Source: Clostridia bacterium
Lineage (GTDB): Bacteria > Bacillota > Clostridia > Oscillospirales > CAG-272
Length of the DNA: 64,000 nt
Direction: 5' to 3'
NCBI GenBank assembly: GCA_017456545.1
Contig: JAFTJE010000012.1
Span: 1 to 64,000 of the forward strand
In this document: positions 49,304 to 57,795 of the stretch, one piece after another
How positions within the stretch are numbered: the stretch's first letter is position 1
Layout: every line of letters starts with the position of its first letter
Program-made: the position numbers and the translations under genes
Notes under the pieces: generated by a model
The model's input: the letters and a program-made list of their open reading frames with translations, nothing else
What the model was told of the DNA's origin: nothing
Databases searched by the model: none

Positions 49304-49675
49304 ATGGCTTTGGACAATTTAACAAAAGTTGGAACGTACAACGATAAGTTTAACAAAATTTTAAATATAAATATAAGTCAAAAAGATATTTTTGTTTCAG
49401 ATGGACTAAAAACTCATTTGATTAAAAGAAATCATTTAGATTGTTTGAAATATATAAACAAACTCCAGGAAATCATAAAAAATCCCGATTATATTGGGGT
49501 GAATCCAAATGAATCGGGAGATTCAGTTGAACTTGTGAAAAAATATTCTGACAATGTTTTAATCGGAATTAAGGTAGATTTATCGTCAAATATTCTATAT
49601 GTTTCCACAATGTATAATCTGCAAGAGCAAAAATTACAAAGAAGAATTCATAGTGGAAGACTTGTTAAATTTTAA
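49304..49675 (+). CDS. PBECR3-like domain protein (putative RNase-toxin fold)
   Basis: 123 residues, distinctly AT-rich. The pattern KVGTYNDKFNKILNINISQKDIFVSDGLKTHLIKRNHLDCLKYINKLQEIIKNPDYIGVNPNE...SVELVKKYSDNVLIGIKVDLSSNILYVSTMYNLQEQKLQRRIHSGRL recalls the PBECR3 domain (phage-Barnase-EndoU-ColicinE5/D-RelE-like nuclease). His/Arg-rich KTHLIKRNH and the final SGRL would be active-site candidates. Such domains usually occur in phage polyvalent proteins or toxins. A TTG at 49310 has better ribosome-site spacing than the ATG. Confidence 0.7.
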   Translation: MALDNLTKVGTYNDKFNKILNINISQKDIFVSDGLKTHLIKRNHLDCLKYINKLQEIIKNPDYIGVNPNESGDSVELVKKYSDNVLIGIKVDLSSNILYVSTMYNLQEQKLQRRIHSGRLVKF

Positions 49676-49738: not shown

Positions 49739-49880
49739 GCAGTAAGAGTATACTGAATAGTGAGTTTGAATGAGGTCGGAAATGGTTCCCGACACACTTC
49801 GAAAGAAGTACCTGAGATGATGGATACACCGCCCATCCGTTTGAACTTAATAAAAAGCCCTCGTTAGGGCTTTTTATTTT
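49739..49880 (+). ncRNA. Candidate small RNA, about 140 nt
   Basis: Between the strong promoter and a perfect terminator (AAAAAGCCCT-CGTT-AGGGCTTTTT, 49852-49875) lie three hairpins: GTCGG/CCGAC (49775-49793), ACTTC-GAAA-GAAGT (49796-49809) and GATGG/CCATC (49819-49837). TTTGAA occurs before and after this hairpin set. No ORF is credible. I do not recognise a named RNA family. The RNA ends just before the IS200 left end. Confidence 0.75.
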
Positions 49881-49891
49881 TTGTCTAAAAG

Positions 49892-50594
49892 AATACCACG
49901 CGATAGTCGCGTGGTTCAATAGAGGTTAACCGGTGAGAAAGGAATCCTCCGATATGATATAATGAAAGAGACCTGCCAGTCAAATTCAAAAAACATATCG
50001 GAGGATTTATCTATGAAAAAAGAGACCATAGACACAAATAGTTTAGCACATACAAAATGGAATTGCAAGTATCACATAGTGTTTGCACCAAAATATAGAC
50101 GAAAAGTATTTTACGAAGAAAAAAGGTTAGAAATAAGAGAAATACTACGAAAACTATGCCAATGGAAAGGTGTAGAAATAGTAGAAGGGGAAGTGTGCCC
50201 AGATCACATACATATGCTGGTAAGCATCCCGCCCAAAATGAGCGTTTCGGGATTCATGGGATAGTTTGAAAGGAAAAAGCTCATTGTTGATATTTCAAAA
50301 ATGGGGGAACATGAAATTTGCATACAGAAATCGCGAATTTTGGTGTAAGGGATATTACGTAGATACCGTGGGTAAAAACACAAAGGCAATAAAGGAATAT
50401 ATAGCAGATCAAATAACGAAAGATAAGGAAAGCGACCAGTTAAGTATGTTCGACCCACGGGACCCATTTATGGGTAGTAAGTAGCATATGCATGGCTGGC
50501 AGGCCAATTCTTAACGCACTTGTGCGTAGCCAGTAATGTCTAGGGCTATGCCCGAAACTGAAATACCCCCCGTTTTACGGGGGGATATTTATTA
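49892..50594 (+). mobile_element. IS200/IS605-group element with broken tnpA
   Basis: About 700 bases. The left end has the hairpin ACCACGCGATAGTCGCGTGGT (49895-49915); the right end has the ACGCAC-TT-GTGCGT hairpin (about 50513-50526) and an ACCCCCCGTTTTACGGGGGG hairpin. The only gene is a Y1 transposase (tnpA) with a frameshift. The same ends occur in the miniature element at 40470-40684. Exact boundaries are inferred from shared sequence. Confidence 0.88.
50013..50484 (+). pseudogene. tnpA: Frameshifted IS200 transposase TnpA
   Basis: From ATG 50013 (GGAGG at 50000-50004) the frame reads through KWNCKYHIVFAPKYRRKVFYEE and the HUH motif CPDHIHMLVSIPPKMSVSGFMG, then stops at a TAG. The continuation KGKSSLLIFQKWGNMKFAYRNREFWCKGYYVDTVGKNTKAIKEYI, with the catalytic Tyr, is in another frame from 50266. 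A single extra G in GGATAGTTTGAAAGG explains both; without it the text would read MGYLKGKSS as in intact relatives. Y1 transposases cut single strands at the hairpin ends; this copy cannot be active alone. Confidence 0.9.
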
Positions 50595-50663
50595 TGCTAT
50601 TTTTCAAGGCGATATTCAAAAGATATCATTTCCCCAAAACGCCCTTTGGGGAGGACTTGAACT
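50593..50663. repeat. 71-bp module repeat, copy A (upstream of XRE gene)
   Basis: This stretch matches 52562-52632 at about 63 of 71 positions. Core words: ATTCAAAAGATATCATTTCC and CTTTGGGGAGGACTTGAACT; CCCCAAA/TTTGGGG form a hairpin. It directly abuts the IS200 right end and precedes the XRE-type regulator. Confidence 0.88.
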
Positions 50664-50768
50664 AAAAAAGCGGTTTTGCAAGTGCTACTTGACAAAATCA
50701 AGTGATATATTCTTTATTTTTGCAAGGATTTCTGTTATAATCAAATTAAGCAAAAGGAGGCGACTTTT

Positions 50769-50868
50769 ATGACAGTTGGTGAAAAAATACAAGCATATAG
50801 AAAGCGACTTGGATGTCGCAAGAAGAGCTCGGGCAAAAGTTGCTTGTAAGCCGACAGACAATTACTAT
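50769..50868 (+). pseudogene. Frameshifted N-terminal fragment of an XRE regulator
   Basis: After a perfect AAAGGAGG, ATG 50769 encodes MTVGEKIQAYRKRLG; a one-base loss then shifts the frame. In the shifted frame the text continues SQEELGQKLLVSRQTI, exactly the expected rest of an XRE helix-turn-helix, before a TGA at 50870. It is thus a truncated, broken HTH gene whose ribosome site is now upstream of the intact XRE gene. Confidence 0.75.
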
Positions 50869-51975
50869 ATGACAATCGGTCAGAATATCAAACGACTTCG
50901 CAGAAATGCGGATATGACACAGGAAGAACTCGCCGAAATGCTGTCGATATCCTCTCAGGCAGTCAGCCGTTGGGAAACAGATTCCGCTATGCCGGATATT
51001 TCGTTGTTACCCATGATTGCCAATATTTTTGATGTCACCACAGATTCTCTTCTAGGAGTGGATATATCAAACAAAGAAGCACACATCAAATCAATTATTG
51101 AAGAAGCTCGTGAAACAGGAAAAAGCGGACGCATAAGCGAAGCTGCTGAAATCATTCGTAATGGAATTGCGAGATATCCAAACAGCTATGAATTGTTATC
51201 TGAGCTTCAAGAATATTTGTATATTTTAAGTAAGCATTCACCTGACAAAGAGAAAGCTGTAATACGGAAAGAGATTATTTCACTTGGCGAAAAAGTTATT
51301 GCCAACTGCATGGATAACCAAATAAGAAACCGTGTTATGACTACTCTGTGTTACACTTATAATAAAGTCGGAGAAAAGGAAAAAGCTGAAAAAATCGCAT
51401 TGTCTATGCCAAACATTTATGAATCGGGAAGTGTTTTGCGCACTCACATCGAAACGGGTGATCGTCAATATGAAGCAAAGCGAGACTTGATCGTTACATT
51501 AATATCGATGGCAGTTACAGAGTTATCCAAACTTAATACAAAATTGGATAACGGTGATTGGGCTTTGTCGGATGACGAACAAATTATCATTTATCAAAAA
51601 GCATTATCACTGATTGATGTGTTATGTGAAGATAATGATTATGGTGAGTATATATTGAATGTTTCTGACTTGTATAGAAATATTGCAGCGGTATTCAGCA
51701 GAAAAAACGATATTGCGAAATCATTGGAATATCTTAAGAAAGCGGTAACAATTAATGTGTCGTTTGATAATTCCTATAAACCAACACAAGTACACACATC
51801 TCTTCTTCTTCGCAATGATATTTACGACGACTTTTTCTGGACGGATACAAATAATGCCTCTTTGTCGCTTTTAATTGATATCAACAACAATGAAGATTTC
51901 AACGCTGTTAAAAAAGAAGCAGGTTTTGCCGATTTGTGCAACGAATTAAAAAAAGCAGCCGGAAACCGAAACTGA
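50869..51975 (+). CDS. XRE-family regulator with C-terminal TPR-like region
   Basis: The ATG at 50869 starts MTIGQNIKRLRRNADMTQEELAEMLSISSQAVSRWETDSAMPDISLLPMIANIFDVTTDSLLG, a clear XRE HTH; 368 residues in total. The remaining 300 residues are helical repeats (AAEIIRNGIARYPNSYELLSELQEYLY, NIAAVFSRKNDIAKSLEYLKKAVT) resembling TPR units, as in peptide-sensing or cytosolic regulators. Its own ribosome site is weak, so translation may be coupled to the broken fragment upstream. The stop lies inside a TGATATCTTTTT motif shared with the MerR module. Confidence 0.9.
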   Translation: MTIGQNIKRLRRNADMTQEELAEMLSISSQAVSRWETDSAMPDISLLPMIANIFDVTTDSLLGVDISNKEAHIKSIIEEARETGKSGRISEAAEIIRNGIARYPNSYELLSELQEYLYILSKHSPDKEKAVIRKEIISLGEKVIANCMDNQIRNRVMTTLCYTYNKVGEKEKAEKIALSMPNIYESGSVLRTHIETGDRQYEAKRDLIVTLISMAVTELSKLNTKLDNGDWALSDDEQIIIYQKALSLIDVLCEDNDYGEYILNVSDLYRNIAAVFSRKNDIAKSLEYLKKAVTINVSFDNSYKPTQVHTSLLLRNDIYDDFFWTDTNNASLSLLIDINNNEDFNAVKKEAGFADLCNELKKAAGNRN

Positions 51976-52000
51976 TATCTTTTTTGGTCTGACTTGCCAA
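51973..52000 (+). repeat. TGATATCTTTTT module-end motif, copy A
   Basis: TGATATCTTTTTTGGT followed by TGACTTGCCAA begins with the stop codon of the XRE gene. The MerR gene ends in TGATATCTTTTTCGGT followed by AACGTGCCAA (53937-53964). AAAAGATATCA, its complement, is found in the 71-bp repeats. Confidence 0.8.
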
Positions 52001-52561
52001 AAAGAAAAGTCGCGCGAGCGGCTTTTTCTTTTTGTACTTTTCACTATTCTCTTTTCACTCTTCACTTTTCTCTGACTCTCCCGCACGACTTTTCCAGAGA
52101 AGAGATAAGAGAGAAGAGAGAAAAGGTAGCCTTTCTCCCTTTGGTCGAAAAGCATTTTTATTATAAAATCGTGTGCATCTTTTTCGGCACCTCTACTCAA
52201 AAAGGAAACCGTCCAAAAGGACGGTTTTTCTTTTTGGTTGTGTGGCAAGCGTCGGCTTGCCACATTCGGTTATAAGTCCGACGAGCGTAGCTCGTTGGGG
52301 AAGCACACCGCGCGCATCCTGTGGATGAAACAGCGCGGCGTGCTTCCCGCAGCGGTCGGATTTTTACGCCGAAGCGACCAGCGTAGGCGAATAAAAATTC
52401 GGGTTACCGCAAGGCGGCACAGCGACACAGTATAGGAAAACCCAATTAAATTTCGACAATTATATAATTAAATTCAAATCTCGTCTCCACAACCAACAAT
52501 GCGAACCGAAAAAGATATCGGTTCGGAAAACCCCGAAACCACATCGGTTTCGGGGTTTTGT
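52000..52561. other. Gene-free stretch rich in hairpins between regulator modules
   Basis: Contents: a terminator hairpin AAAGAAAAGTCGC/GCGGCTTTTTCTTT (52001-52032), a T/C-rich block near 52030-52080 partly complementary to the GAGAAGAGATAAGAGAGAAG block near 52097, a terminator AAACCGTCC-AAAA-GGACGGTTT (52206-52226), a GC-richer palindromic stretch 52240-52430, a tRNA 3'-end-like fragment (52473-52495), and two hairpins CGAACCGA/TCGGTTCG and AAAACCCCGAAACC/GGTTTCGGGGTTTT (52527-52559). No gene is seen. Confidence 0.7.
52473..52495 (+). other. tRNA 3'-end-like fragment
   Basis: The 23 bases have tRNA 3'-end geometry: T-loop TTCAAAT, five-base stem strand CTCGT, seven-base acceptor strand CTCCACA, discriminator A and CCA. 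No matching 5' half is present, so it is not a tRNA gene. It may be an integration scar. Confidence 0.6.
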
Positions 52562-52632
52562 TATGCCATTTTTTAAGGTGGAATTCAAAAGATATCATTT
52601 CCCAAAAACGACCTTTGGGGAGGACTTGAACT
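52562..52632. repeat. 71-bp module repeat, copy B (upstream of MerR gene)
   Basis: Second copy of the repeat at 50593-50663, about 89 percent identical, same orientation, 1969 bases apart. It lies 105 bases before the MerR-type gene, a similar position to copy A relative to the XRE fragment start. Confidence 0.88.
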
Positions 52633-52681
52633 ACTTATCTTGATAAAAACGTAAAATTCTGTTACAATTTATAAAAAGGTA

Positions 52682-52712
52682 TTGACTTTTACCCAACGTA
52701 AAAAACTATAAT
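52682..52712 (+). promoter_or_regulatory. MerR-type promoter with 19-bp spacer and dyad operator
   Basis: TTGACT (52682-52687) and TATAAT (52707-52712) are separated by 19 bases, the long spacer typical of promoters activated by MerR proteins. The inverted repeat TTTTAC-CCAAC-GTAAAA (52687-52703) lies in the spacer. The MerR gene starts 25 bases later, so it probably controls itself. Confidence 0.85.
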
Positions 52713-52736
52713 TTCGGTGTAAATGGAGGTGTTTCT

Positions 52737-53939
52737 ATGAAAATAAAGTCTGTATGCGAATTAACCGGTCTTACCGATCGCACGATTCGTTACTATATTG
52801 AAGAAAAACTGATATCTCCCTTGTACACCGAGAATTATTTGGGTCGTAAAACCTATAACTTTTCCGAAAAAGACATTAAAGACTTAAACGATATTGCCGT
52901 TTTGCGAAAATTTGATTTCACTTTGGAGGAGATAAAATCGGTAATCAATGACGCGGAAGCAAGTAAAGAAATTCTTTCCAATGTAAAAGATAGAACGGCA
53001 CAAACTGTTTTGGATGGTCAAAACAAACTCTTTGTGTTATCACAGATCAGTACCGAAAAAACTTATACAGTCGCAGAGCTTGCTGAGGCGTTATCAAAGG
53101 TCTCTTTGGATATGCCTGAGCATAAGGAAACAATTAAAACCAATATTCTAAAAACGGCATTGTCTGTTTTAAAAACAATAATAATCTTTGCGGTTGTTTG
53201 GCTGCCGATAGCGTTAAGCATATTTGTAGTCACCATTAGTATCAATGATTATCATTATCCCGTTTTTGAACCTATAATGATTGGATTGACAATTACTTCT
53301 TTTCTACCGTCCATAACGGTATTGATTGTGTCAAAAACAAAACTGAAATGGAAAAAGATTGCGCAACGAATTTTGCTCGTTTTTTGTATTTTGAGCATCC
53401 CCGTTAGCTTTTTTATGTCATTTGGAATTGTGTCAAAATCCCAAACAACAGATATTAGAAATTACCGTGACTTTGATGCTGATTGCCTTGCCAATAGAAA
53501 TGTGGTGTTCCAAGAGTTGTTCCCAAACTGGCCGAATTATTTTGAAAACGTGAAACAAGCAGACGGCAGTTATAAAACAGTTTATTTAGATTCACATTAT
53601 TATTATCACTACCACCAAGGATTTGACTACACCTACGATATATATGCCGAGTGGCCATTGAGTGAAGATGAATACGTCAAAGAGGTAAAACGAGCAACTG
53701 CTGTATTTACAAAAAACATTGAAAACAAAACGTACAATTATAAGTTTGCAGAAATTATAAAAGGTGACTATAATTGTCTGGTGCTGTACAACGGTGATGC
53801 GCCTTTCACCAAGGCGACCGATAATTATGATTATATTATTTTTGCTTATAATGATGAAAATAACACCGTTCGGTACATCTACTGTGACAGTCTTGAAAAC
53901 GGCGCCGATCAGCCGTATTATTTAGAACTTGATTGGTGA
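52737..53939 (+). CDS. Membrane-spanning MerR-family regulator
   Basis: 400 residues. Residues 1-70 form a MerR HTH and wing (KSVCELTGLTDRTIRYYIEEKLISPLYTENYLGRKTYNFSEKDIKDLNDI), followed by a helical linker. Three membrane helices follow (about 143-170, 176-200, 207-236), then about 165 extracytoplasmic residues containing DSHYYYHYHQGFDYTYDIYAEW. The odd number of helices puts the C-terminal domain outside. This is a one-protein transmembrane sensor-regulator; the His/Tyr-rich segment may bind a metal or ligand. GGAGGTG precedes the ATG. Confidence 0.88.
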   Translation: MKIKSVCELTGLTDRTIRYYIEEKLISPLYTENYLGRKTYNFSEKDIKDLNDIAVLRKFDFTLEEIKSVINDAEASKEILSNVKDRTAQTVLDGQNKLFVLSQISTEKTYTVAELAEALSKVSLDMPEHKETIKTNILKTALSVLKTIIIFAVVWLPIALSIFVVTISINDYHYPVFEPIMIGLTITSFLPSITVLIVSKTKLKWKKIAQRILLVFCILSIPVSFFMSFGIVSKSQTTDIRNYRDFDADCLANRNVVFQELFPNWPNYFENVKQADGSYKTVYLDSHYYYHYHQGFDYTYDIYAEWPLSEDEYVKEVKRATAVFTKNIENKTYNYKFAEIIKGDYNCLVLYNGDAPFTKATDNYDYIIFAYNDENNTVRYIYCDSLENGADQPYYLELDW

Positions 53940-53964
53940 TATCTTTTTCGGTGCAACGTGCCAA
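53937..53964 (+). repeat. TGATATCTTTTT module-end motif, copy B
   Basis: TGATATCTTTTTCGGT, then AACGTGCCAA, starting at the MerR stop codon, as in the XRE module at 51973-52000. Confidence 0.8.
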
Positions 53965-53965
53965 T

Positions 53966-54003
53966 AAAAGAAAAACACATCCACACGGATGTGTTTTTCT
54001 TTT
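53966..54003 (+). terminator. Terminator of the MerR gene
   Basis: A perfect 17-bp stem AAAAGAAAAACACATCC / GGATGTGTTTTTCTTTT with loop ACAC. Confidence 0.92.
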
Positions 54004-54568
54004 ATTCGCTACGGAATGAGGCTTGAGCCATATGGTCAAGGGATTATGAGCCCGAGGGCGAATAACTTGTTTGCCAGTGAAAACGATTGAGTATCGTTTT
54101 CATGCCTGCAAATCGCCACAAAGCAAAGAGTTTTCCGAGCCGAGTGTAAACAAAGTGTCGAGGTGAGAGAAAACGACTATGCGACTGGTGCGGTGGTTAT
54201 ATTAAAACAACTGTGTGTTGTTTTCTTGCCAGCGTTTCTCCGTCGAACAAGGAGTATGCCAAGTTGAGTGTAAACGAAGTGTCGAAACGCGGCAGACGAC
54301 TATGTGAACGGAGAGAAAGGTCATGTGGTTCAAATCCCTTCCCCACACCTAAAACAAACCTAAATTGAACCATCGGTTCGGTTTAGGTTTTTTCTTTTGT
54401 GTGGTGGAGTTTGAATCCTTTGCGACTCCGTGTTATACACGACGAGCGTGGCTTGATGGGAATTGAGAGAAAAAACGCTCAGTGAGTCGATTAGTGAGTC
54501 GATTAAGTTACAAGCACTTGACAATTTATGCGCTTTGCGCTATAATTTTTAATTAGTGAGGTGTGTAT
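54004..54568. other. Gene-free stretch with degenerate direct repeats and MTase promoter
   Basis: GAGTGTAAACAAAGTGTCGA (54142-54161) and GAGTGTAAACGAAGTGTCGA (54266-54285) are 124 bases apart, and ACGACTATG follows each at the same distance (54173 and 54296), indicating a degenerate 124-base duplication. CATGTGGTTCAAATCCC near 54323 begins a tRNA 3'-like fragment, then CCTAAA..TTTAGG forms a terminator-like hairpin. TTGACA (54518-54523), 17 bases, TATAAT (54541-54546) is the promoter of the methyltransferase; GCGC-TTT-GCGC sits in its spacer. No gene seen. Confidence 0.75.
54327..54351 (+). other. Second tRNA 3'-end-like fragment
   Basis: GGTTCAAATCCC, then TTCCCCACACCTA, fits T-loop TTCAAAT, T-stem strand CCCTT, acceptor strand CCCCACA, discriminator C and CTA in place of CCA. 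No 5' half is present. Confidence 0.55.
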
Positions 54569-55546
54569 ATGATTGAGATTACTGATAAAAAATTAAATGG
54601 ATATAAATTCATAGATTTGTTTGCTGGTATGGGTGGATTTAGAATAGCATTGGAATCACTTGGTGCCGAATGTGTTTATTCAAATGAATGGGATGTTCCT
54701 GTGCAAAAAGTATATGCTGATAATTTTGGGGATGTTCCAGAAGGTGATATAACAAAAATTGATGAATATTCTATTCCTTATCACGATATTCTTTGTGCTG
54801 GGTTTCCTTGTCAGGCATTCTCGATTAGTGGAAAGCAACGAGGGTTTGAAGATAGTAGGGGCACATTGTTTTTTGATGTAGCTAGAATTGTTAGGGCTAA
54901 AAAGCCTAAAATTGTATTTATGGAAAATGTTAAAAATTTTGCCACGCATGACAACGGTAGAACCTTACAAATTGTAAAAAATATAATGGAAGAATTAGGA
55001 TATGTTTTTTACCAAAAAATATTGAATTCGGTAGACTACGGTATACCGCAAAAACGAGAAAGAATTTATATGGTTTGCTTTAGAAAAGATTTACAAATAA
55101 ACGACTTTGTATATCCAAAAAAAATCAAGCTTATACGACATGTTGAGGATTATTTATTACGAGATGAAGATCAGGTTAAACATTTGTATGTCAACAGATC
55201 AGATACGCAATTTAATAAAACAAAGGATGATACTTACAGCAATAAGACAATTAGACTTGGAATAGTAAATAAAGGTGGACAAGGAGAGCGTATTTATAGC
55301 ACAAAGGGAATAGCTATAACTCTTTCTGCTTGTGGAGGGGGAGTATTTGCTAGAACAGGTGGATATCTAATTAACGGAAAAACTCGTCGTTTGCATCCTA
55401 GGGAATGTGCAAGAATTATGGGTTATCCGGATTCCTATAGGCTAGCAAAAAATGCAAATCAAGCATACAAGCAACTTGGTAATTCTGTTGTAATTGATGT
55501 TTTACAGTATATTGCTTGTCAAATTGCAAATGTGGTGGAACGATGA
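54569..55546 (+). CDS. DNA (cytosine-5) methyltransferase 1
   Basis: 325 residues from the ATG at 54569 (GAGG seven bases upstream). C5-methylase motifs: I FIDLFAGMGGFRIAL, IV AGFPCQAFS with the catalytic Cys, VI FMENVKNF, VIII QKRERIYMV, IX RRLHPRECARIMGYPDSY, X YKQLGNSVV. The target-recognition region lies at about 190-250. Its stop overlaps the next small gene (ATGA). It is part of a restriction-modification locus with a second methylase on the opposite strand. Confidence 0.93.
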   Translation: MIEITDKKLNGYKFIDLFAGMGGFRIALESLGAECVYSNEWDVPVQKVYADNFGDVPEGDITKIDEYSIPYHDILCAGFPCQAFSISGKQRGFEDSRGTLFFDVARIVRAKKPKIVFMENVKNFATHDNGRTLQIVKNIMEELGYVFYQKILNSVDYGIPQKRERIYMVCFRKDLQINDFVYPKKIKLIRHVEDYLLRDEDQVKHLYVNRSDTQFNKTKDDTYSNKTIRLGIVNKGGQGERIYSTKGIAITLSACGGGVFARTGGYLINGKTRRLHPRECARIMGYPDSYRLAKNANQAYKQLGNSVVIDVLQYIACQIANVVER

Positions 55547-55839
55547 ACGAAATAGATTTTAAGGCTTGGTTACGATCACAAAATACAATAAAAAAAGTTC
55601 AAGGCGATTTAATTTCAAGAATTAAACGCCTTGAACGTGTATTCGGTAATATTGACTTAGACGAAGAATATCAAAAAGATAAGTGCTGTTTTTTACTCTC
55701 TCTATTTAAAAACAAAGGAGTAAATTCCGAAATGAACAAATTTGAAATAGCGGAACTTCCAATAGGTCAATATCAATTAAGCACTTATAAGTATGCTTTG
55801 AAAAAGTACATATCATTTATCGAGTCAGAATGTCTATAA
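55543..55839 (+). CDS. Small helical protein coupled to methyltransferase 1
   Basis: 98 residues from the ATG at 55543, inside the stop of the methylase gene (ATGA). Highly charged and helical (MNEIDFKAWLRSQNTIKKVQGDLISRIKRLERVFGNIDLDEEYQKDKCCFLLSLF...), vaguely like the N-terminal core-binding domain of tyrosine recombinases. No family is assigned. Its 3' end overlaps the 3' end of the opposite-strand nuclease gene by 23 bases. A role in the restriction system is inferred only from coupling. Confidence 0.7.
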   Translation: MNEIDFKAWLRSQNTIKKVQGDLISRIKRLERVFGNIDLDEEYQKDKCCFLLSLFKNKGVNSEMNKFEIAELPIGQYQLSTYKYALKKYISFIESECL

Positions 55840-56611
55840 ATCCAACATTTGAAATTGAATCTATTTGTGGTTCAAACTCCACAGAAAATATAACATTAGC
55901 ATTAAGCGTATTTGAAAGTTTTCTAATTTCATATACGTTTTCTCTTTTTGAAAACATATATTCTGTTCCATCTAATTTAAACCTTATATTGTGAAGTTCG
56001 CTATTAGAAATAGCCATCATTCTATCGCCTTTTACACCAATGGCAATAATAGGATAATTGTTTTCAATATAATTTTTCATCTTTGCAACATTATTTTTTC
56101 CAACATATCCCGAACCACTTCTTTTAACCCTATATGTAGCAGATATATTAAAAACATTTTCAATGTCTTCTATTGAAAAAATTTCAAAGTTATTCGTAAT
56201 AATATATTTCGTTTCTTTTCTTTTGTAATAATTTTTTATCCATGCTGCAAAAACATCAGTACCATTTTCCATTTCTATAAGTTTTCCCCTAGTTCCTGCA
56301 TTTTTAAATGATTCAAAATCTTGATTCATATATTCAATTATTGCGTGGGAGTATGGATTGATTGGTGTTGCGTTCAAATGACTATAATCAAACATTTCTA
56401 TCCCTATATTAGGTAATAAAACAAACTGTCCACATTGAGCAGGGCAATGCTTCGCTTCAATGTAAAAAGATTTTCCACTATTAGTCACCACTTCAATGTC
56501 GGATTTTGTGGAATCGCTTTTTCCTTTCCAAGTAAAATGTGCATATTGACCGAAATGTCTTTCTAAATAGTCAACACAAGACTTTTCAAAATCTTCCCAA
56601 ACTTTAGCCAT
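55817..56611 (-). CDS. Putative type II restriction endonuclease (PD-(D/E)xK fold)
   Basis: 264 residues. STKSDIEVVTNSGKSFYIEAKHCPAQCGQF shows the D-(x)n-E-x-K arrangement of PD-(D/E)xK nucleases at residues about 37-55. The rest is unfamiliar, as usual for fast-evolving restriction enzymes. The gene starts eight bases inside the end of methyltransferase 2, so the modification enzyme is made first. Recognition sequence cannot be predicted. Confidence 0.82.
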   Translation of the reverse strand: MAKVWEDFEKSCVDYLERHFGQYAHFTWKGKSDSTKSDIEVVTNSGKSFYIEAKHCPAQCGQFVLLPNIGIEMFDYSHLNATPINPYSHAIIEYMNQDFESFKNAGTRGKLIEMENGTDVFAAWIKNYYKRKETKYIITNNFEIFSIEDIENVFNISATYRVKRSGSGYVGKNNVAKMKNYIENNYPIIAIGVKGDRMMAISNSELHNIRFKLDGTEYMFSKRENVYEIRKLSNTLNANVIFSVEFEPQIDSISNVGFIDILTR

Positions 56612-57587
56612 TGTTATTGCCTCCTTGCTTTTTTATAAATTCAAGTATTGATGTACCTATTGCCTTAATTACATTTACAGTCATTGCATTTCCTGCTTGC
56701 ATAAGCAAGTGCCTATCTTTAACAAAATTTTTAACCCTCATAGCATATTCTTTTGGAAAACCTTGTAACAGCAAAGCTTCAAATCCGGTTAGTTGAAAAA
56801 TAGTATTATTTTTAACATATAGAATACCATCTCTTTGTGCTCGTAAAGTTGGGCATTTGCCGTCATATATTCTCAAATCGCTCATTCGAGTGTCTATGAT
56901 TTTCCCTTCCATTTGAGTGATATCTGCAACAGAATATTTGCCGTTGTTAGTTGGGTTATTCAAATAATAATGCAATATTTCGAGCCTTTCTGGAGTAGCT
57001 AAATTGTCATCAATTAAAAAATCCATTAAATTCGGTTTTATGATTTTTGGCGGCCATTCAAACTTAGAAAAATCAAAGTTCAAATCAGTTCTAAAACCAA
57101 CAAAATAAACCCTTTGACGCATTTGTGGGACACCATAATCTAGGCTTGTCAAAACTCTGTACGATGTTGTATATCCACAATTTGTCAGTTCGTTTATAAT
57201 CGTTTTGATTGTTTTCCCATTATCATGAGTTACCAATCCTTTTACATTTTCCAAGATAAAAACTTTTGGTGATTTCTCTTTTATAATTCTTGATAGATGG
57301 AATATGATTTGTCCCCTATCATCAGAGAAACCCTCTTGTCTACCGATAACAGAAAAAGTTTGGCAAGGGAATCCTGCAATCAAAACATCAAAATCAGGTA
57401 AATTTTCTTTTCCCAATTTTTTCAAATTTCCAAAATTTTTGTCCTCAGTTTGATGCATTAGTATATATGTTCTGTCGGCTAAACGACTCGTGTCGGAATG
57501 TCCTACACATCTTAGTCCACATTGTTCTAACCCTAGCCTTCCACCACCGATTCCTGAACAAAAATCAAAGAATGTATTAATCATCAT
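56604..57587 (-). CDS. DNA (cytosine-5) methyltransferase 2
   Basis: 327 residues. Motifs: I FFDFCSGIGGGRLGLE, IV AGFPCQTFS, VI ILENVKGLVTHDNG, VIII QMRQRVYFVGF, IX GFEALLLQGFP, X LLMQAGNAMTVNVI. Motif I departs from the usual DLFAG. It overlaps the controller gene by 11 bases and the nuclease gene by eight, giving a compact C-M-R operon. Confidence 0.93.
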   Translation of the reverse strand: MMINTFFDFCSGIGGGRLGLEQCGLRCVGHSDTSRLADRTYILMHQTEDKNFGNLKKLGKENLPDFDVLIAGFPCQTFSVIGRQEGFSDDRGQIIFHLSRIIKEKSPKVFILENVKGLVTHDNGKTIKTIINELTNCGYTTSYRVLTSLDYGVPQMRQRVYFVGFRTDLNFDFSKFEWPPKIIKPNLMDFLIDDNLATPERLEILHYYLNNPTNNGKYSVADITQMEGKIIDTRMSDLRIYDGKCPTLRAQRDGILYVKNNTIFQLTGFEALLLQGFPKEYAMRVKNFVKDRHLLMQAGNAMTVNVIKAIGTSILEFIKKQGGNNNG

Positions 57588-57795
57588 TTTGCTCTACAAA
57601 CAATTTATAAGTTTTAATTTCTAATGCATCGGCAATTTTTTGAATATTGTCAAGAGAAATGCTTCTTCTAAAACATTCGATATCACTTATATATGTTCTG
57701 TGTAAACCTGAAAGCTCAGCTAATTTTTCTTGAGAAATATTCTTTTCCTTGCGATAATTACGCACATTTGTTCCGAAAACTCTAATAATATCCAT
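57577..57795 (-). CDS. Restriction-modification controller protein (XRE HTH)
   Basis: 72 residues, a bare XRE HTH (GTNVRNYRKEKNISQEKLAELSGLHRTYISDIECFRRSISLDNIQKIADALEI). Size, position ahead of the methylase and nuclease genes, and the operator at its promoter fit controller (C) proteins that delay nuclease expression after entry into a new host. GAGGTG precedes the ATG. Confidence 0.9.
   Translation of the reverse strand: MDIIRVFGTNVRNYRKEKNISQEKLAELSGLHRTYISDIECFRRSISLDNIQKIADALEIKTYKLFVEQNDD

Follow-up and report, generated by a model that had tools for sequence, protein, structure and literature searches.

Tandem gene cassettes behind tRNA-Met genes of Clostridium-related gut bacteria seem to work like integron gene swapping

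We analyzed 64,000 nucleotides of a Clostridia bacterium (Oscillospirales; CAG-272; GenBank assembly GCA_017456545.1, contig JAFTJE010000012.1, positions 1 to 64,000; hereafter the window), in which two regulator genes, an XRE-TPR gene and a membrane MerR-type gene, lie between similar repeats. An initial annotation had described them as two parallel repeat-bounded modules. We read these units, with a probability of roughly 0.7, as small mobile gene cassettes that insert one-way behind the CCA of tRNA-Met(CAT) or behind the CCA of an earlier cassette, which gives rise to tandem arrays. Comparison across genomes showed, as far as sequence can tell, that the ends are defined and the borders sharp, that the cargo is unrelated, that one target is preferred, that units join in tandem, that sites occur both filled and empty, and that one cassette can be present in different families. 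Cassettes of Clostridium-related gut bacteria seem to work like integron gene swapping, with neither the integron enzyme nor its sites found.

To describe the cassettes, 90 distinct units were cut from loci L071-L090 and L121-L192 and from the window (L, G and C denote loci, genomes and contigs). A left side was recognized in 37 of them (28 with the left end L, 9 with the 71-bp repeat S only), and the remaining 53 were excluded from the anatomy. The order of parts is left end (hairpin, terminator and 71-bp repeat), gene or genes, and right end GATATCTNNNTCGGTGCAACNTGCCA, placed at the stop codon or just past it. L reads ACA(A/T)TGCGAACCGANNNAGATATCGG and is followed by a terminator and then by S, which terminates in GGGGAGGACTTGAACTA ahead of the gene(s); the right end R is GATATCTNNNTCGGYGCRACNTGCCA. 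The last gene was oriented toward R in all 37 delimited cassettes, ruling out a random placement of the repeats relative to genes. Its stop codon lay inside the final 26 bp in 15 of the 37 and at most 64 bp from the cassette end in 34. Cassettes with L were 909 to 5244 bp long (median 1271; n=28) and mostly held one gene, and 26 of these 28 complete cassettes carried a terminator-like structure within the first 95 bp. Of the right ends with 26 bases of sequence after them (n=83), 11 joined a left end directly. The right flanks were mostly terminators, different from genome to genome.

Copies of a cassette from different genomes were similar inside and dissimilar outside. The cassettes of L127 and L178 (1072 and 1071 bp) matched at 97.8% over 1076 columns, and those of L086 and L175 (1132 and 1131 bp) at 95.7% over 1138 columns. 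L155 and L176 matched at 92.7%, with similarity extending about 45 bases into the tRNA side. The window's MerR cassette matched contig C17 of G421 at 87.7% over 1496 bp; in 50-base bins, identity was 25-43% before position 52494, 72-100% inside the cassette, 60% in the right-border bin and 22-38% past it. In this and other pairs, identity rose sharply at the left end and fell at the right end. Relatives of the window's XRE-TPR gene in L079 and L179 were alike at the protein level only. L072 and L073 have two successive cassettes in common, and their similarity runs past one cassette because the same two stand in a row in both.

Such sharing could also come from ordinary homologous recombination, with homology of left ends and tRNA-Met swapping neighbors and no dedicated enzyme. 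Left ends of different arrays share 70-100% identity in their first 120 bases, and the cassette pair of L072 and L073 and the fused first cassette of the window (see below) fit such exchange. However, the common right border is just 26 bp long and is followed by terminators differing between genomes, and the alignment of filled with empty sites begins at the very first base past CCA. We consider homologous recombination quite unlikely as the explanation.

The cassettes are located immediately downstream of a tRNA-Met(CAT) 3' CCA or of the CCA closing the previous cassette: the bases before the left end were CCA in 25 of 28 cases, TCA in 2 and ACA in 1. For 22 of 84 right ends, from 71 loci and the window, a tRNA-Met was found upstream on the same strand at 0.6-4.6 kb, and for 2 on the opposite strand; most other loci were too short to show a tRNA. 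When counting was restricted to the 32 right ends with at least 5 kb upstream or with the tRNA found, 22 had tRNA-Met upstream. A tRNA scan of 27 loci, drawn from 30 that match a block of G078 (see below), found tRNA-Met in 20. Because tRNA-Met is present at most loci, we re-phased the module, so that tRNA end, hairpin, terminator and 71-bp repeat form one junction between tRNA and left end. The parts of the two parallel modules are therefore present, but their proposed phasing was off, as these four belong to the next cassette. The docking tRNA-Met has GGG/CCC in its anticodon stem and a C1-A72 mismatch as read from sequence, which we take to be marks of an initiator tRNA.

Empty sites were recognized by right flanks that occur elsewhere directly after a tRNA-Met CCA, aligned from the first base. 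There were three strong cases: window position 53964 against the tRNA-Met of the same genome (98.1% of 108), window position 52000 against L169 (95.0% of 120), and L079 against L180 (100% of 51). Weaker cases were found in the same comparison list, and many of the remaining flank matches paired junctions between right and left ends with junctions between tRNA and left ends, as arrays would give. Serial insertion at one site, which had been proposed from the window alone, is borne out by this tRNA-Met CCA, which occurs in both occupied and empty form. A search of 4 genomes in the genus of G130 gave no empty site; only G130 itself matched, plus two short extra matches. For the island site, compared within the genus, homology stopped just after a rubrerythrin gene in all 7 compared stretches, the exceptions past it being pieces of 122 bp (L267) and 106 bp (L270). 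This indicates that the site is variable, and its empty form was not seen in these 7 stretches.

The junctions between right and left ends are palindromic. Six observed ones folded as single strands with z from -3.0 to -8.1, four with a two-base bulge on the left-end side and two with a symmetric mismatch. The variable arm triplets were complementary within the same cassette in 22 of 28 (Fisher p 0.006), and right ends of other subfamilies (L083, L087 and L089) had an arm matching their own left end. A hairpin was possible in 20 of the 22 distinct left-end sequences listed, despite differing letters and register; in the other two (L056 and L068), L passes straight into S. Seven left ends folded against shuffles gave z from -0.5 to -5.8. 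This arm matching suggests, short of proof, that the ends may be recognized by shape.

Cassette borders lie between CCA and A, near the tip of the palindrome. The outer 9-11 bases differ between the two ends, the inner arms are inverted repeats, and CCA flanks both sides, which can be read as a target duplication. Non-autonomous DDE transposons, similar to miniature inverted-repeat transposable elements (MITEs), would account for such inverted arms and for a duplicated CCA. However, their ends should not differ in the outermost bases, and insertion here was mostly at tRNA-Met ends or behind an earlier cassette, with tandem joins; we regard this origin as very improbable. The common direction of otherwise unrelated genes, the palindromic sites close to stop codons and the tandem arrays also recall a decayed true integron, that is, a cluster of attC cassettes whose integrase was lost (CALIN). 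The border at the palindrome tip, the leading terminator and the tRNA anchor speak against this, as does the result for the integron integrase IntI (TIGR02249), which scored above the cut-off in 0 of 18 carriers; 14 control genomes also gave 0, so this search had no positive control. We find a CALIN scarcely credible here.

The ends recur far beyond the window. With at most 2 mismatches allowed, 30 of the order's 394 genomes contained the right-end pattern, and a reversed control pattern had no genome of the order (394 searched) among the matches listed. The exact pattern matched 72 stretches when the 84,980 species genomes of genome_contigs were scanned, with Clostridia or Clostridia families named in 69 titles and ruminant samples in 47. 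These counts speak against chance occurrence of the ends. One of the 72, L186 (Alistipes), showed no other feature, was taken as chance and was dropped from the right-end counts. When the window block from tRNA fragment to 71-bp repeat was used as query, other families of the order matched (best, 90% over 161 bp), and the genus itself, with 28 other genomes, gave a single match better than E 0.01 (G027, over 38 bases). The corresponding G078 block matched 44 of 394 genomes at E <= 1e-5, in part over the whole block (best four 94-99%, window 93%) and in part over the terminator only. Thus, the repeats are widespread in related genomes, and modules unique to the window were rejected. A viral origin was likewise rejected, the exact pattern being absent from viral_contigs. 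No description of such arrays was among the literature matches listed (titles and abstract starts; bioRxiv preprints outside the scope).

Cargo was diverse: 85 cassette proteins formed 54 clusters. Representatives of 32 clusters were scanned against Pfam and included regulators (XRE, MerR and AraC), enzymes (GH10, GH32, GH43, nucleotidyltransferases, a methyltransferase, a C-N hydrolase, a nucleoside phosphorylase and a cytidine deaminase), ABC, MFS and EamA transporters, and a TIR-decarboxylase fusion. Some matched no family, and a recombinase was found in 0 of the 32. Ends recurring around unrelated genes in many genomes bear out the proposal of exchangeable cassettes. In the window itself, the XRE-TPR and MerR genes are mutually unrelated, so the modules are not homologous throughout; simple tandem duplication of one module was rejected on this ground and because the modules have different histories.

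The window's own array consists of the following features, all on the forward (+) strand.
49998..50484, +: IS200-like Y1 transposase gene, split in two frames (PF01797, E 4.2e-24 on the first fragment)
50582..50862, +: left-hand portion of another XRE cassette, with 71-bp repeat, promoter region and first codons, joined to the XRE-TPR gene (L154:5906-6186 matches at 92.9% over 282 columns)
50588..50664, +: 71-bp repeat (S element) of cassette 1 (repeat family comparison)
50869..51975, +: XRE-TPR regulator gene, cargo of cassette 1 (HTH_3, E 7.6e-13)
51974..51999, +: right end of cassette 1, overlapping the stop codon (5 mismatches to the TTTTT consensus)
52000..52174, +: flank with terminator and palindrome, like the sequence directly after the tRNA-Met CCA in L169 (95.0% over 120; 169/185 columns)
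52175..52199, +: second kind of right end (R2), GCATCTTTTTCGGCACCTCTACTCA (sequence copies in other loci)
52473..52495, +: tRNA-Met 3'-end-like fragment ending CCA, directly before cassette 2 (sequence)
52496..52526, +: left end (L) of cassette 2, hairpin CGAACCGA/TCGGTTCG (1 mismatch to consensus; fold z -5.8)
52527..52559, +: terminator hairpin after the left end (sequence)
52557..52633, +: 71-bp repeat (S element) of cassette 2 (repeat comparison)
52737..53939, +: membrane MerR-type regulator gene, cargo of cassette 2 (MerR_1, E 4.9e-12)
53938..53963, +: right end of cassette 2, overlapping the stop codon (0 mismatches to consensus)
53964..54345, +: right flank, diverged copy of the region directly after the genome's own tRNA-Met (against G000:C8, 98.1% over 108)

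Judged from these features, the array is decayed: the left cassette is chimeric and truncated, the right one complete, with a remnant in between. The repeats, terminators and tRNA-like ends of the initial annotation were all found in place, as was TGATATCTTTTT(T/C)GGT at 51973 and 53937; the two repeats (50588-50664 and 52557-52633) are 90% identical over 77 bp. Module 1 has no left end, the IS200-like insertion lies to its left, and its start is fused from another XRE cassette; since 50582-50862 derive from that cassette, ATG 50869 is the most probable start of the XRE-TPR frame. The stretch 52000-52199, with a terminator hairpin at 52004-52027, is the remnant of a further unit that closes in R2. 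In L169 the palindrome precedes the gene of a four-helix-bundle protein, which is absent at window 52000..52174. Exact copies of R2 were found in L079 (same DNA as L110 and L174) and L169, and near copies with 2-4 mismatches in L185, L165 and L183. A gene-free stretch with tRNA-Met-like pieces lies between R2 and the complete MerR cassette (52496-53963), whose left end has a hairpin containing CGGTTCGG at 52502-52525. Behind this cassette, a terminator hairpin was located at 53960-54009; in the comparison of 53964..54345 with contig C8, the far part matched at 140/141, with an extra, partly similar stretch in between. A tRNA 3'-end-like stretch lies at 54327-54351, and the hairpin after it (54356-54390), previously taken as a matching part, is present but is not a cassette left end.

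The assembly has a single match to tRNA-Met, located on contig C8, which stops 260 bp behind the tRNA, so the window's array lies away from the usual dock. It may have been relocated there or may have arisen by serial events at a tRNA-like fragment. By eye, we also noted decayed inverted tRNA-Met pieces and short non-coding segments at window 52260-52300, 54010-54075 and 54430-54460, and in L083; these segments end in the 3' half of tRNA-Met, as if another kind of unit accumulates behind it. To the left of the array, window 49304-49675 encodes a small protein with a PBECR3 nuclease-like domain (E 1.9e-23), and a skipping-rope RNA (RF02924, 66.3 bits, E 8.6e-15) was found at 49765-49845, left of the IS200-like gene. 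This was the only RNA above its family cut-off and lies outside the modules; a known RNA family behind the repeats was rejected. To the right, window 54563-57795 holds two C-5 cytosine methyltransferases with a protein without Pfam family between them and an XRE regulator, likely a restriction-modification island.

Which enzyme moves the cassettes was addressed by profile searches. No tyrosine recombinase was found inside cassettes by hidden Markov model (HMM), the L088 match (see below) lying outside any delimited cassette. PF00589 proteins of 18 carrier genomes (E <= 1e-8; usable protein from about half of 30 loci) were of several kinds, and the recurring ones resembled chromosomal XerC/XerD; a recombinase common to the carriers was rejected for this reason. 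On array contigs, PF00589 matches lay 72 kb (G130:C7) and 40 kb (G158:C3) away.

Larger elements with similar left ends are candidate helpers. In L088 (G290), a related left end is followed by TrbL (7.7e-149), a secretion ATPase and further genes. L043 (G257) has a DUF4314 gene behind the same left end as cassettes, and DUF4314 is common in conjugative elements. Other multi-gene content follows such left ends at tRNA-Met or its 3' end in L084 and L085. No right ends were found for L088 and L085, and the L043 and L084 loci are cut short. G290 was rejected as source: it has a related left end and conjugation genes, but no right end in the 120 kb fetched. Its integrases are at distances of about 13 and 63 kb from the tRNA, and the more distant one is beside a gene that by eye resembles a restriction specificity subunit. 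By eye as well, the tyrosine recombinase at L276:12676-13821 (-) (G290:C1, near 319 kb) adjoins a type I restriction specificity subunit-like gene and is perhaps a phase-variation recombinase.

The four-helix-bundle gene (PF05635) was the most frequent neighbor (7 loci). Such genes were present in 92 of 197 genomes of the order, with up to 9 per genome; four copies read elsewhere were all flanked by short direct repeats, and a tRNA gene was near 8 of 20 loci. Palindromes of the CTCTTCACTCTTCAC type precede PF05635 genes in L169 and L180, and the same type occurs at window 52047-52122. As these genes stand in many other genomic places, the protein was rejected as mobilizer and no such role is claimed.

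The IS200-like gene adjoining the window array raises the possibility of single-strand (HUH) mobilization, in which an IS200/IS605-type Y1 transposase reads the end hairpins and inserts 3' of a short target, the tRNA-Met end. The lack of a long target duplication, CCA as left flank in 25 of 28 cases, the left-end hairpin and the single orientation would fit. However, the first fragment of the window's Y1 gene had no relative in the other scanned records (the search did not extend to Y1 genes in the remainder of the genomes), and the TTT-type right end has, by eye, no clear hairpin of its own. The target also appears longer than the 4-5 bases usual for IS200/IS605. HUH mobilization is therefore unlikely in our view.

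Several observations weigh against mobile cassettes at a tRNA-Met dock. First, no recombinase was identified: the tyrosine-recombinase HMM matched only L088 in 123 partly overlapping records (the window and L071-L192; hmmsearch), and serine recombinases were not searched for. Second, 10 of the 32 right ends considered above, including both of the window, have no tRNA-Met upstream, and arm triplets are non-complementary in 6 of 28 cassettes. Third, the arrays of L177, L180, L141 and L079 each include a unit in which a four-helix-bundle gene stands shortly upstream of the cargo gene and a right end is present, but no left end was recognized. Finally, nearly all titled sources are metagenome assemblies, where contig ends break arrays, and the window array itself may be an assembly join; yet its two flank copies differ in sequence.

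Taking these points into account, we still favor one-way insertion behind CCA. The cassette would move as a circle, with its joined ends forming the palindromic site. A site-specific recombinase acting in trans, most probably of the tyrosine type, would recombine this site with the tRNA-Met CCA; it may come from the larger elements with similar left ends. The leading terminator of the cassette would take over from the tRNA's own terminator, which would be shifted to the array end and serve the last gene there. More tentatively, at slightly less than even odds, this could be a second, independent integron-like system, with recognition of a folded palindrome by shape, co-changing arms, an initiator tRNA as dock, a terminator swap that keeps insertions transcriptionally neutral and a cassette pool common to families of gut Clostridia. 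Single-gene trade among these gut bacteria is poorly known, and the cassette pool raises the question of the moving enzyme. One short pattern would list accessory genes mobile in the herbivore gut, and the place to look is behind the initiator tRNA.

Among known systems, 23S rRNA intervening sequences (PF05635) resemble the cassettes in their insertion beside a stable RNA gene and in the PF05635 genes of some arrays; unlike there, PF05635 genes occur elsewhere in the same genomes in other short-repeat surroundings. A left-end hairpin, no long target duplication and a fixed left flank are common to IS200/IS605 elements, whereas the long target and the absence of relatives of the window's Y1 gene near other arrays are not. 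The fixed tRNA site, both empty and filled, of tRNA-targeting integrative elements is matched here, but their element-encoded tyrosine recombinase was not found. Tycheposons and hitcher elements use tRNA 3' ends, insert serially and carry cargo that possibly depends on a recombinase in trans. The cassettes resemble these and other helper-moved tRNA islands in tRNA 3'-end site, serial insertion and perhaps the need for a trans recombinase, but they enter after the last base of the tRNA, so that no tRNA part need travel with them, and form head-to-tail arrays of units of about 1.3 kb.

Like integron and CALIN cassettes, the cassettes are small units, mostly of one gene, which is directed toward a palindromic site close to its stop codon; they line up behind an anchor in tandem arrays whose cargo is unrelated, and no recombinase was found inside them. 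In attC sites, R boxes (RYYYAAC and GTTRRRY) frame recombination at the foot of the hairpin; no such pair was seen here by eye (no attC model was run). Unlike in integrons, the anchor is the tRNA-Met CCA and not attI, the border is at the palindrome tip, a terminator leads the cassette, and IntI was at 0 of 18 carriers. Integrons are very rare in Firmicutes according to PMC9024848. Since the array itself was the only testable feature of integron membership found, the cassettes are best filed as integron-like, non-autonomous elements that would be moved by a recombinase acting in trans.

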